The notes below the pieces were generated by a model. It did not search any database. It saw nothing but the letters and a program-made list of their open reading frames with translations, and was not told where the DNA came from. Both the position numbers and the translations under genes were made by a program. This document shows positions 3,525 to 12,870 of a stretch of 64,000 bases of DNA, one piece after another. Each line of letters begins with the position of its first letter. Within the stretch, counting starts at the first letter, position 1. The stretch comes from Methylacidimicrobium sp. B4 (GTDB lineage: Bacteria > Verrucomicrobiota > Verrucomicrobiia > Methylacidiphilales > Methylacidiphilaceae): NCBI RefSeq assembly GCF_017310545.1, contig NZ_CP066203.1, forward strand, positions 124,001-188,000, written 5' to 3'.

Positions 3525-5303
3525 GTGAAAAAGCCATCTCTTCTTGCCGCAGCCATCTTGTGCTTAACTTTAGCCAGCCTGCCAGCAGAGGCCAGCAGCT
3601 TGGCGGAATTGGTGCAAGCGGCCAAGAAGGGGGATGCCGAGGCGCAGTGCAAGCTGGGCCTTGCCTATTACCAAGGCCAAGGAGTTTCCCGGGATTATGC
3701 ACAGGCGGTCTATTGGTATCGAAAATCGGCAGAGCAGGGGAATGCCCTGGCGGAATTCAGCCTGGCTGTTGCCTATGAGCGGGGTCGAGGCGTTCCGCAG
3801 GATTACGCTCAGGCGGTGTATTGGTATCGGAGAGCCGCCGAGCAGGGGGATGCCGATGCACAATTCAACCTAGGTGTTGCCTATGAGCGGGGTCGAGGCG
3901 TTCCGCAGGATTCCACGCAGGCGGTGAATTGGTTTCGGAAAGCAGCCGAGCAGGGGGATGCCAAGGCGCAATGCAATCTGGGCGTTGCCTACCACAAAGG
4001 GGAAGGCGTTCCGCAGGATTACGCTCAGGCGGTGTATTGGTCCCGGAAAGCCGCTGAGCAGGGGGATGCCGATGCACAATTCAACCTAGGTGTTGCCTAT
4101 GAGCGGGGTCGAGGCGTTCCGCAGGATTCCACGCAGGCGGTGAATTGGTTTCGGAAAGCAGCCGAGCAGGGGGATGCCAAGGCGCAATGCAATCTGGGCG
4201 TTGCCTACCACAAAGGGGAAGGCGTTCCGCAGGATTACGCTCAGGCGGTGTATTGGTATCGGAGAGCCGCCGAGCAGGGGGATGCCCAGGCGCAATTCAG
4301 CCTGGGTGCTGCTTACCGCGAAGGGGAAGGCGTTCCGCAGGATTCTACCCAGGCGGTGAGTTGGTTTCGGAAGGCGGCCGAACAGGGGGACGCCGCCGCG
4401 CAATTCAGCCTGGGTGCTGCCTACCACGAAGGGAAGGGCGTTCCGCAGGATTATGCTCAGGCGGTGAATTGGTATCGGAAGGCGGCCGAACAGGGGCTTG
4501 CTCAGGCGCAACGCATCCTGGGCGTTGCCTACGACGAAGGGGAAGGCGTTCCGCAGGATTCCACCCAGGCGGTCAGTTGGTTTTACATGGCCGCCGAGCA
4601 GGGGGATGCCCAGGCGCAATTTAGCCTGGGCGCTGCTTATGACCGGGGCCGGGGTGTACCGCAGGATTATGCTCAGGCGGTGTATTGGTATCGGAGGGCC
4701 GCCGAGCAGGGGGATGCCCAGGCGCAATGCAACCTGGGCGTTGCCTGTGACCAGGGCCGGGGTGTGCCGCAGGATTCTACCCAGGCGGTCAATTGGTTTC
4801 GTAAAGCAGCCGAGCAGGGGCTTGCCCAAGCACAATTCAACCTAGCCTTTGCCTACCACAAAGGCCGAGGTGTGCTGCAGGATTCCACGCAGGCAGTGAA
4901 TTGGTATCGGAAGGCGGCCGAGCAGGGGCTTGCCCAGGCGCAATGCAAGCTGGGCTTTGCCTATTTGCTTGGCCAAGGCGTTCCGCAGGATTCTACCCAG
5001 GCGGTCAATTGGTTTTACAAGGCTGCCGAGCAGGGGGATGCCCAGGCGCAATTTAGCCTGGGCGCTGCTTATGACCGGGGCCGGGGTGTACCGCAGGATT
5101 ATGCTCAGGCGGTGTATTGGTATCGGAGAGCCGCCGAGCAGGGGGATGCTGGGGCACAAACCTCGCTGGGCTTTGCCTACGAGCTTGGCCAAGGCGTTCC
5201 GCAGGATTATGCTCAGGCGGTGTATTGGTATCAGAAAGCCGCCGAGCAGGGGGAAGCCGAGGCGAAGAAGCGTCTGGCCGTCCTCGAAGGCGGAGGAAAA
5301 TAG
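3525..5303 (+). CDS. Secreted Sel1-like repeat protein 2 with 15 SLR units
   Basis: GTG 3525 is preceded by GGGAGG at 3515-3520. The product of 592 residues starts with a signal peptide (VKKPSLLAAAILCLTLASLP, cleavage near AEASS) and is otherwise a continuous array of about fifteen 36-residue Sel1 repeats, each with GVPQD(Y/S)(A/T)QAV.W(Y/F)..AAEQG. Such solenoids act as periplasmic or cell-surface adaptor proteins. Adjacent units alternate between YAQAVYWY and STQAVNWF types. Near-identical DNA blocks recur 216 bp apart (3861 and 4077 regions) and 432 bp apart (4601 and 5033 regions), exact multiples of the 108-bp unit, so the array has expanded recently by whole repeats. The partner is unknown. 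Confidence 0.88.
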   Translation: MKKPSLLAAAILCLTLASLPAEASSLAELVQAAKKGDAEAQCKLGLAYYQGQGVSRDYAQAVYWYRKSAEQGNALAEFSLAVAYERGRGVPQDYAQAVYWYRRAAEQGDADAQFNLGVAYERGRGVPQDSTQAVNWFRKAAEQGDAKAQCNLGVAYHKGEGVPQDYAQAVYWSRKAAEQGDADAQFNLGVAYERGRGVPQDSTQAVNWFRKAAEQGDAKAQCNLGVAYHKGEGVPQDYAQAVYWYRRAAEQGDAQAQFSLGAAYREGEGVPQDSTQAVSWFRKAAEQGDAAAQFSLGAAYHEGKGVPQDYAQAVNWYRKAAEQGLAQAQRILGVAYDEGEGVPQDSTQAVSWFYMAAEQGDAQAQFSLGAAYDRGRGVPQDYAQAVYWYRRAAEQGDAQAQCNLGVACDQGRGVPQDSTQAVNWFRKAAEQGLAQAQFNLAFAYHKGRGVLQDSTQAVNWYRKAAEQGLAQAQCKLGFAYLLGQGVPQDSTQAVNWFYKAAEQGDAQAQFSLGAAYDRGRGVPQDYAQAVYWYRRAAEQGDAGAQTSLGFAYELGQGVPQDYAQAVYWYQKAAEQGEAEAKKRLAVLEGGGK

Positions 5304-10375: not shown

Positions 10376-10967
10376 GGCCCGGCCTTCCCATATTCCCAAC
10401 AGGAAGGCGATCCGCACCGTGCAGGCTCCTTTTGCAGCTATGCGGGTCCAATTCCTTTTGGCCTTCTTTCCTCCATTCCATAACGGGTGCGCGGGAAACG
10501 ACCCGGCTTTCCATCGGAGCGGCATGAGGAGATTCGGCGAGGAGCCAAAAGCGAGCGAGCGCGAGGCAGCAAGGTCGATGGAGAACGCAGCAGGAGAAAG
10601 CCTTCGACAAATGACAGCTCGGAAGAATGAGGGTATCATTCCATTCTGAGTGCAACGACTGCTCCGAATGCTAACGCTTCTCTCACTTTCTGCACGCCCG
10701 CAGATGCGTATCTTGTGAGTTATCGAAAATAGCATCTGTCTCTGTATCACGTACTTGTAGTGTAGCTCCCGCAACGAACGTTCCCGGAGCGGCAAAACTT
10801 TCCCGTTGTTCGCTCGCTGCTCGGCCGTTACGGTTACTGTCGAAAACCCGATCGGCGAATGCCGGACGGTCTTTCAGCCGACATCCCGGCAGGATGACGG
10901 CTTTGTATGAGAATTCAGGCATGTGAGGAATGAGAACGTGCAGTGAGATGAGGGAGGAATCACCGAT
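10376..10967. other. 592-bp intergenic region upstream of pmoC
   Basis: No convincing gene or RNA is seen. The composition becomes less GC-rich between about 10640 and 10800, as expected for a promoter region of the downstream pmoC, but no -35/-10 pair is good enough to call. The right end carries the pmoC ribosome site (GAGGGAGGAAT at about 10950-10960). Confidence 0.5.
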
Positions 10968-11807
10968 ATGGAAGAAACTCAAGTAACGACCGCGGCGGTC
11001 GCGCGCCCGCCCGCCTCCGCCTTTTCCTGGAAACGTGCGGGGATCGCCATCGGGGCGCTGATCGCCTTTGATCTGTTGATCAATGTCTATGAAAGGCTCT
11101 ACGCCTTCTCGAAGGGTCTGGATTACTCCTCTCCGGAATATGGCTCCTACTGGATGGCCATGCTCCTCGCGGAGCTGGTCCTCGAGATGATCACCGCGGG
11201 GGCGCTCTGGGGCTGGCTCTGGAAGAGCCGGGACCGCGCGCTCGACCGGCTCACCCCGGCAGAGGAGCTCAAGAGGTATTGGGCATTGGGGCTCTTCTTG
11301 CTGACCTATGCCTGCGCGGCCTATGCGGGCGGGAGCTACTTCACCGAGCAGGGCGCTGCCTGGCACCAGACGGTGATCCGGGATACCGACTTCACGCCGA
11401 CGAACATCGTCGCGTTCTACCTCAGCTATCCGATCTACATCCTCTTCGGAGTCGGCTCGCTGATCTACGCCATGACCCGGTTGCCTCAGTTTGCCACGGC
11501 AATGTCCTTGCCCTTGACAGTGCTGGTGGGGAGCCCGCTCATGAACTTCCCGAACGTGGCCATGAATGAGTTCGGCCATACCCGCTGGTTCGTGGAGGAG
11601 CTCTTCGTGGCCCCGCAGCATTGGGGATTTGTCGTCTTCGGCTGGGGCACGCTGGCGATCCTCGGGACCTGGCTGCAGATCTGCCCGCGGCTCATGGCGC
11701 TGATCCAGCATCTCTACTCTGGAAAGCCGCTTCCGAGCGCGGCCGAGACGATGAAGGACCCACAAGGCTCCGTCCATCCCATTGCGCGGGCGGCTCGAAC
11801 GATCTGA
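10968..11807 (+). CDS. pmoC: Orphan particulate methane monooxygenase subunit C, CuC site altered
   Basis: This 279-residue membrane protein aligns without gaps in its core to PmoC of pMMO (e.g. SYFTEQ, WHQTVIRDTDFTP, FYLSYPIYI, EELFVAP, GFVVFGW). About six membrane helices are visible. In Methylococcus capsulatus numbering the CuD ligands Asn227, His231 and His245 are kept as Asn200, His204 and His218 (NEFGH and PQHWG). The CuC ligands Asp156, His160 and His173 become Gly129, His133 and Asn146 (EQGAAWH and PTN), so two of three are missing. No pmoA or pmoB lies nearby. Good ribosome site GAGGGAGGA before ATG 10968. It may be a paralogue used in an alternative or partly inactive complex; AmoC is less likely because the sequence is closest to PmoC. 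Confidence 0.93.
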   Translation: MEETQVTTAAVARPPASAFSWKRAGIAIGALIAFDLLINVYERLYAFSKGLDYSSPEYGSYWMAMLLAELVLEMITAGALWGWLWKSRDRALDRLTPAEELKRYWALGLFLLTYACAAYAGGSYFTEQGAAWHQTVIRDTDFTPTNIVAFYLSYPIYILFGVGSLIYAMTRLPQFATAMSLPLTVLVGSPLMNFPNVAMNEFGHTRWFVEELFVAPQHWGFVVFGWGTLAILGTWLQICPRLMALIQHLYSGKPLPSAAETMKDPQGSVHPIARAARTI

Positions 11808-11832
11808 TCCGAAAAAGGAGAGAGCGCCACGG

Positions 11833-12870
11833 TCAAGCGGGGCGAGAAGCCTCTCGTCCCCGCTTCCGCGTCTCCTGCCGCAATGCGGCGAGGGAAAGCT
11901 CGACCTGCGCCAAGAGCGGCTCCAGCCCGGGGATTCTCTGGAGCACCTCGGCGAGCAGTCGCAAGGCCACGGGAATGTAGCGGAGAAACTTCTCCTTTTT
12001 CTTGACCAGTCCAAGATAGCCATAGGCCCCCAGGGCCTGCATCAGCCGCTGGAGGGCTGCCCAATCGAATGCCTCTCCGAGATCTTCTGGGGGAGTCAGG
12101 GAGGCCTCCCGCCACAGAGACCCATAATAGCTCCGGAGCTCCTCTCTCTGCTCCGCGTGGAGAGCGACATAGGGGTCGTAGAGGAGGGAAGCCAAATCGT
12201 AGGAAGCCAGCCCGAGGCGCATTCCCTGGAAATCGATGAGATAGGCTTGCCCAGCCCGGATCAAAACGTTCTGCGACTGGAAATCGCGATGGATCAGATG
12301 GCGAGGGAACGCAGCGAGGCGCTCGGCGATCCAGGTGAGCCGCGGAAGGGCTGAGAGGCGAGCCAGCGGACTGGCCTCCAGGTGGAGGAAGCGCCCCAGG
12401 CAGTTCGCAAAGAAGTAGCCCTGTTCCCAAGCGTAGAGATCCCGGGTGAATGGGGGCTCCGTCCGGAGCCCTCCGAGGCCCCCGTCGCCCCGGGCGTGGA
12501 GCGCAAAGATCTCCCGCAAGGCCGAGCGATAAAGGGGGCCCAGCTCCTGCCAAGGCGCGTTGCGATAGCTCCAGAGATCCGCGTCCCCCAGATCCTCGAT
12601 CCAGAGAAGACCGCGAAGCGGATCCTGCCCGTAAATCCGGGGAGAGCGAACTCCGAGGGAGTGGAGAAAATTCCCCAGGGGACCGTACCGGGCGTTTTCG
12701 GGTCGGCTCTCTCCATAGCGGACGAGAATGAGCGACCAGTCCGGCTCCATCCGAATCCGGTAAAAGCTCCGATCCGACCCCCCCTTTTCGAGCTTCGTGA
12801 TCGAGGTTTGGCCCAGCTCGTACTGCGGAAAGCGGCGGGCGGTTTCCGCCAGAAGCTGATCGAGAAGCAT
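11833..12870 (-). CDS. Aminoglycoside-phosphotransferase-fold sugar kinase (AmgK-like)
   Basis: The 345-residue protein has the APH/choline-kinase fold: Brenner motif LIHRDFQSQNVLI (catalytic Asp, residues ~195) followed by YLIDFQGMRLGLASYDLASLLYD (metal-binding DF.). This D-F-Q-G...YDL.SLL arrangement is that of AmgK, the anomeric kinase that phosphorylates N-acetylmuramate/N-acetylglucosamine in cell-wall recycling. It follows the nucleotidyltransferase gene with a 3-base gap, mirroring the AmgK-MurU pair, which turns recycled MurNAc into UDP-MurNAc. The substrate assignment rests on this pairing and is an inference; other sugars are possible. Confidence 0.75.
   Translation of the reverse strand: MLLDQLLAETARRFPQYELGQTSITKLEKGGSDRSFYRIRMEPDWSLILVRYGESRPENARYGPLGNFLHSLGVRSPRIYGQDPLRGLLWIEDLGDADLWSYRNAPWQELGPLYRSALREIFALHARGDGGLGGLRTEPPFTRDLYAWEQGYFFANCLGRFLHLEASPLARLSALPRLTWIAERLAAFPRHLIHRDFQSQNVLIRAGQAYLIDFQGMRLGLASYDLASLLYDPYVALHAEQREELRSYYGSLWREASLTPPEDLGEAFDWAALQRLMQALGAYGYLGLVKKKEKFLRYIPVALRLLAEVLQRIPGLEPLLAQVELSLAALRQETRKRGREASRPA

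Follow-up and report, generated by a model that had tools for sequence, protein, structure and literature searches.

What is a PmoC protein for when its gene stands apart from pmoA and pmoB and its product has lost two of the three ligands of one copper site while keeping those of the other? The question is raised by a gene at positions 10968–11807 (forward strand) of the window, a stretch of 64,000 nucleotides from Methylacidimicrobium sp. B4 (contig NZ_CP066203.1). The open reading frame begins with ATG, contains no internal stops and encodes a full-length PmoC of 279 residues. This orphan protein matches the AmoC/PmoC family profile PF04896 strongly (E = 5.6e-88; 294.9 bits against a cut-off of 26.7) and TIGR03078 only just (281.8 against 280.6 bits), and it falls short of the threshold of the AmoC_BACT profile NF041641 (299.4 against 319 bits). 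An AlphaFold2 (AF2) model built from 62 sequences reached a pTM of 0.74 (0.58 in an earlier run with 24 sequences), and its best Foldseek matches were all PmoC/AmoC chains, with TM-scores up to 0.77 on query length; the copper-pocket region was uncertain in both runs and is of low confidence in the model (pLDDT < 50). By profile and predicted fold the orphan belongs with PmoC. The label of a standard catalytic PmoC is nevertheless withheld, because neither its CuC motif nor its operon context is that of such a protein.

In the solved enzyme CuC is bound by Asp156, His160 and His173, and CuD by Asn227, His231 and His245 (PMC12576850). Alignment to Methylococcus PmoC (phmmer; 1yew_C, 289-residue numbering) gives a core offset of 27, such that orphan residues 129, 133 and 146 correspond to 156, 160 and 173, and residues 200, 204 and 218 to 227, 231 and 245. 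The preliminary description had taken the alignment to be gap-free at this constant offset, which is correct through the core but not at the N-terminus, where there is a two-residue gap (offset 29 before approximately residue 28) that leaves the copper-site assignments untouched. The residues it had named can be read directly from the translation. At CuC, the Asp156 position is Gly129 (codon GGC, 11352–11354) and the His173 position is Asn146 (AAC, 11403–11405), these being Asp and His in all other PmoC examined, and only His160 is kept, as His133 (CAC, 11364–11366). At CuD, all three ligands are retained as Asn200 (AAT, 11565–11567), His204 (CAT, 11577–11579) and His218 (CAT, 11619–11621), all on the forward strand. 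Two of the three CuC ligands are therefore gone and all three CuD ligands remain.

Among 13 sampled genomes of the family, orthologues of the orphan were found in strain LP2A (G002; a Methylacidimicrobium according to PMC8498564; 96% identity to the copy in the window genome, G000) and in the metagenome-assembled genome STC_89 (G003; 87%). Both carry the same Gly and Asn, and where other PmoC have DxxxH(x12)H all three orphans read GxxxH(x12)N. Codon 129 is GGC, GGC and GGA in the three genes, the glycine being constant despite the change of codon. The six ligands are intact in the family's other full-length PmoC (32 of 32), in 80 of 80 from viral contigs and in all 7 plasmid-borne copies, which come from alpha-, beta- and gammaproteobacteria and actinobacteria, with plasmid copies, viral copies and solved structures serving as stand-ins for the proteobacteria. 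The worry that the EQD and SH residues might commonly be absent from functional PmoC is thus removed, since every other PmoC examined has them. When 288 Verrucomicrobiota genomes were searched with Pfam, AmoC turned up in this family only; with PmoC so restricted and the other family copies normal, a phylum-wide loss of CuC ligands was rejected. A viral origin was also rejected, as viral contigs held no orphan-like PmoC and annotated phages gave no match; the motifs of an initial viral scan are absent from the orphans themselves, and that scan therefore covered normal-type PmoC only.

The ligand losses form part of a wider alteration of the pocket. Across 59 other PmoC there are 47 invariant columns, and exactly five of these are altered in all orphans, namely D156G, S172T, H173N, G225A and L244Q/T (Methylococcus numbers), and each is a copper ligand or lies within two residues of one (p = 5.7e-4 within the family, by a post hoc hypergeometric count). 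Every orphan retains 40 of the 47. Two of the family-invariant residues that have changed are beside CuD ligands, with G225A adjoining Asn227 and L244Q/T adjoining His245. Further changes at conserved positions, I220N and M236V, are confined to the orphans, and the C-terminal cysteines of operonic PmoC (274 and 277) are replaced. Ser172 is also missing (Asn instead) from a plasmid pxm-type PmoC of Methylomagnum that is outside the set of 59. Equivalents of Phe177 and Phe248 are retained in all three orphans and that of Phe240 in two; the STC_89 copy has the additional changes Y53C and F213S (the latter F240S in Methylococcus numbers). The derived pocket residues are identical across the three proteins except at position 217 (Q/T), and the equivalent of HmoC residue 151, which is reported to track substrate class, is Asp, the methane-oxidiser state that would be expected if the substrate class were unchanged. 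Judged from these alignments, the orphan is a paralogue that has been conserved and whose copper pocket has been remodelled.

It had been proposed that such a subunit is a natural test of which copper site matters. The pattern of lost CuC and retained CuD ligands is real, but the test is not a clean one because residues beside the CuD ligands (G225A and L244Q/T) and the conserved I220 have changed too. Moreover, in the solved enzyme Asp156 and His173 double as second-shell residues of CuD, within its water network (PMC12576850), and their loss therefore disturbs CuD as well.

The three orphans form a single clade (support 100/100) nested inside the operon copies of Methylacidimicrobium, on a stem (0.23) that is long compared with operon branches. 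Ratios of dN/dS among them are close to those of operon copies (0.12–0.16 by NG86; 0.07–0.09 by YN00), with a deficit of nonsynonymous change at p = 3e-10 to 2e-17, and the new residue state is, on this evidence, held by purifying selection. A pseudogene is disfavoured by these ratios and by the intact frames. From a dS of 0.54–0.98 between the window genome and STC_89, simple arithmetic puts the chance that all three CuD codons would have stayed unchanged if unconstrained at about 0.0004–0.01; the retained CuD ligands look to be under constraint.

The gene occupies the same place in all three genomes, with a small ORF on one side and an AmgK-like gene on the other. It is surrounded in the window by a DUF748 gene, a 129-residue ORF, an AmgK-like kinase gene and a nucleotidyltransferase gene, and the orphans of LP2A and STC_89 have these neighbours too; the absence of adjacent pmoA and pmoB noted in the preliminary description is borne out, all neighbours being unrelated. 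A segment at about 10378–11860 (forward strand; ends approximate) is restricted to the orphan-bearing genomes, and two relatives that lack the gene, G005 and G006, have its flanking genes joined to each other; nor was the orphan found in the drafts G001 and G004. A tree of the flanking genes pairs STC_89 with G006 (100%) and the window genome with LP2A. The simplest reading of this distribution is an older insertion that was later lost in some lineages, and with two relatives lacking it the orphan is dispensable; its gain by horizontal transfer is a conceivable alternative. A dispersed intergenic repeat of approximately 115 bp (window 10503–10620) lies inside the segment; G006 has several copies of it and G005 a single one. 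In another genome of the genus, a divergent pmoCA pair is found beside a LysR-type gene and near the same DUF748 gene (L035 449–9307, G001:C258), and pmoB was not found next to it. Elsewhere in the window, a 108-bp tandem repeat in 15 copies (3616–5264) encodes Sel1 repeats.

The closed 2.37-Mb window genome also carries a pmoC at 801.8 kb and another at 805.2 kb, each encoding a normal PmoC within one of two tandem pmoCAB operons. The pmoC of the window is therefore an extra copy, as the idea of a paralogue had implied, and like AmoC3 it is monocistronic and additional to the operon copies. The first 120 residues of PmoA are identical between the two tandem operons and their PmoC differ by about 5% (L042 4925–5689, 8323–9087 and 7058–9415), a hint of gene conversion. 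The PmoB encoded there lacks equivalents of His33, His48, His72, His137 and His139, the ligands of CuA and CuB, and PmoC consequently holds the only recognised copper sites in this organism.

The orphan retains upstream sequence of the pmo operon type. The 128 nt before it share homology with the leader that precedes pmoC in the operons, a conserved structured element of about 128 nt common to the pmoCAB operons, here at 10838–10967 on the forward strand (cmsearch 92.3 bits, E = 5.6e-22). The covariance model finds three full matches in the genome, each directly before a pmoC, the other two being on the reverse strand (G000:C1 802647–802774 and 806032–806160); a fourth match (16 bits) is noise. 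Aligned before 13 Methylacidimicrobium pmoC genes, the leader shows covariation at 11 of 21 pairs, more than in any of 500 shuffles or any slid control. It has no match in Rfam and was not detected before Methylacidiphilum pmoC; it is possibly a pmo regulatory RNA. Just upstream is a −10-like TACGGT whose TACG core is invariant before all 13 aligned genes, and alignment of these regions suggests a tentative promoter (TTGTTC, 17 bp, TACGGT; 10806–10834, forward strand), at which a sigma-70 consensus scan called none. The retained leader and the −10-like hexamer support, but do not prove, expression of the orphan in the manner of the pmo operons.

How might these observations be combined? We favour, at somewhat short of an even chance, an alternative C subunit that would not carry out normal methane oxidation and would instead serve the assembly, stability or holding of pMMO. 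Three genomes of the genus share a pmoC of the operon type, upstream region included, that has lost Asp156 and His173, has kept the CuD ligands and has been held in this state by purifying selection; we take it for a neofunctionalised extra copy of the pMMO C subunit. Transcribed from the retained pmo promoter and leader, the protein would fold as a normal PmoC and, having no partner genes of its own and being conserved overall, would presumably dock onto the operon-encoded PmoA and PmoB. The resulting trimer would hold copper at CuD at most, in a more polar pocket, and our best guess is that it would not sustain the normal rate of methane oxidation. Under certain conditions it may serve to assemble pMMO, to stabilise it or to hold it, by analogy with the extra monocistronic AmoC copies of ammonia oxidisers, which are credited with aiding AMO stability under stress (PMC11561398). 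Consistent with this proposal are the Gly/Asn state in three genomes, the single clade, the purifying selection and the retained leader and predicted fold, together with the position of the altered invariant columns, all at or near ligands. We also count in its favour that mutations in the CuC ligands of the homologous hydrocarbon monooxygenase (HMO) are reported to abolish activity (PMC6572826), and that PmoC carries the only recognised copper sites in this organism. Against it, a purely structural subunit would not be expected to need its CuD ligands.

The chief rival is an active C subunit working with PmoA and PmoB, in which oxygenation would occur at CuD and CuC would never be used, with an altered rate, affinity or substrate; we regard this as possible rather than probable. 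CuD is the currently favoured active site, and CuC and CuD have never been observed occupied together (PMC12576850; PMC11194816). The orphans keep the CuD ligands and phenylalanines described above, their pocket is nearly uniform, and the HmoC151 site still has the Asp of methane oxidisers. However, the second-shell water of CuD is held by Asp156, His173 and Arg165 (PMC12576850), the HMO mutants in CuC ligands are inactive (PMC6572826), and I220N and L244Q/T would place polar side chains near a phenylalanine-lined pocket that in STC_89 has also suffered F240S. The bolder form of the proposal, a CuD-only copper membrane monooxygenase subunit from which selection removed CuC, so that pMMO would gain another catalytic mode or substrate, is doubtful.

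It is unlikely that the orphan works outside pMMO altogether, for instance by binding or sensing copper in the membrane or by regulating pmo expression. The lack of neighbouring pmoA and pmoB, the kept CuD ligands and the replaced Cys 274 and 277 would suit such a role, but a protein freed from the complex would be expected to drift, whereas 40 of the 47 invariant residues persist in every orphan under an upstream control region of the pmo operon type. Quite improbable is a decaying duplicate that has shed its catalytic residues and is on its way to being lost: the absences from G005, G006 and the two drafts, the long stem and the extra Y53C and F213S of STC_89 point that way, but strong purifying selection after the ligand loss, a frame intact in three lineages, a conserved leader and shared losses restricted to the copper pocket argue against it. 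A sequencing or assembly error behind the CuC losses, which the preliminary description had allowed for, can practically be discarded, because the separately assembled genomes of LP2A and STC_89 carry the same changes, with a synonymous difference at codon 129.

An alternative C subunit for pMMO remains the account that we prefer. Whatever its exact role, the orphan is an exception that selection has maintained: CuC has been removed and the CuD ligands kept, in a host whose PmoB is already without CuA and CuB. Set against the operonic PmoC with which it shares a cell, it could help to tell apart what the two PmoC sites do, with no need for engineered mutants, though the changes near CuD are a caveat; in these acid-loving, methane-eating bacteria, nature may itself have tested which copper site matters.

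The closest known proteins are the operonic PmoC of Methylacidimicrobium (pmoCAB1/2-type), which are 64–79% identical to the orphan, of similar length and mostly preceded by the same leader. Unlike the orphan they are encoded with pmoA and keep D156/H160/H173, G225, L244, I220 and the C-terminal cysteines. In Methylacidiphilum (Kam1 and relatives), the orphan pmoC5 is likewise an extra pmoC with no pmoAB of its own following, but it sits beside a pmo cluster, adjoins pmoD and has an intact DxxxH(x12)H (PMC6688271). AmoC3 and other monocistronic amoC products of Nitrosomonas resemble the orphan as divergent single C subunits besides operon copies, and a stability or stress role is reported for them in PMC11561398, citing Berube and Stahl. 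They belong to another phylum and act on another substrate; the single Nitrosomonas plasmid amoC examined (L168), beside which neither amoA nor amoB is listed, has all six ligands. The likeness to AmoC3 is therefore functional only, since the extra C subunits of other groups and the Methylacidiphilum orphan keep the CuC ligands. Large freshwater phages also carry pmoC without pmoAB, but Asp156, His160 and His173 are reported to be kept there (PMC7674155), in agreement with all 80 viral-contig copies. The C subunit of Methylacidiphilum PMO3, an acetone monooxygenase, is similarly a divergent verrucomicrobial paralogue with a proposed new substrate (PMC8630023), but it has a complete operon, all six ligands and Glu rather than Asp at the HmoC151 site. 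The AP8 paper describes two operons, the passages found there mentioning no orphan pmoC, and no description of a PmoC without CuC ligands was found in the literature searched. Single extra xmoC genes have been described before (PMC6215863).
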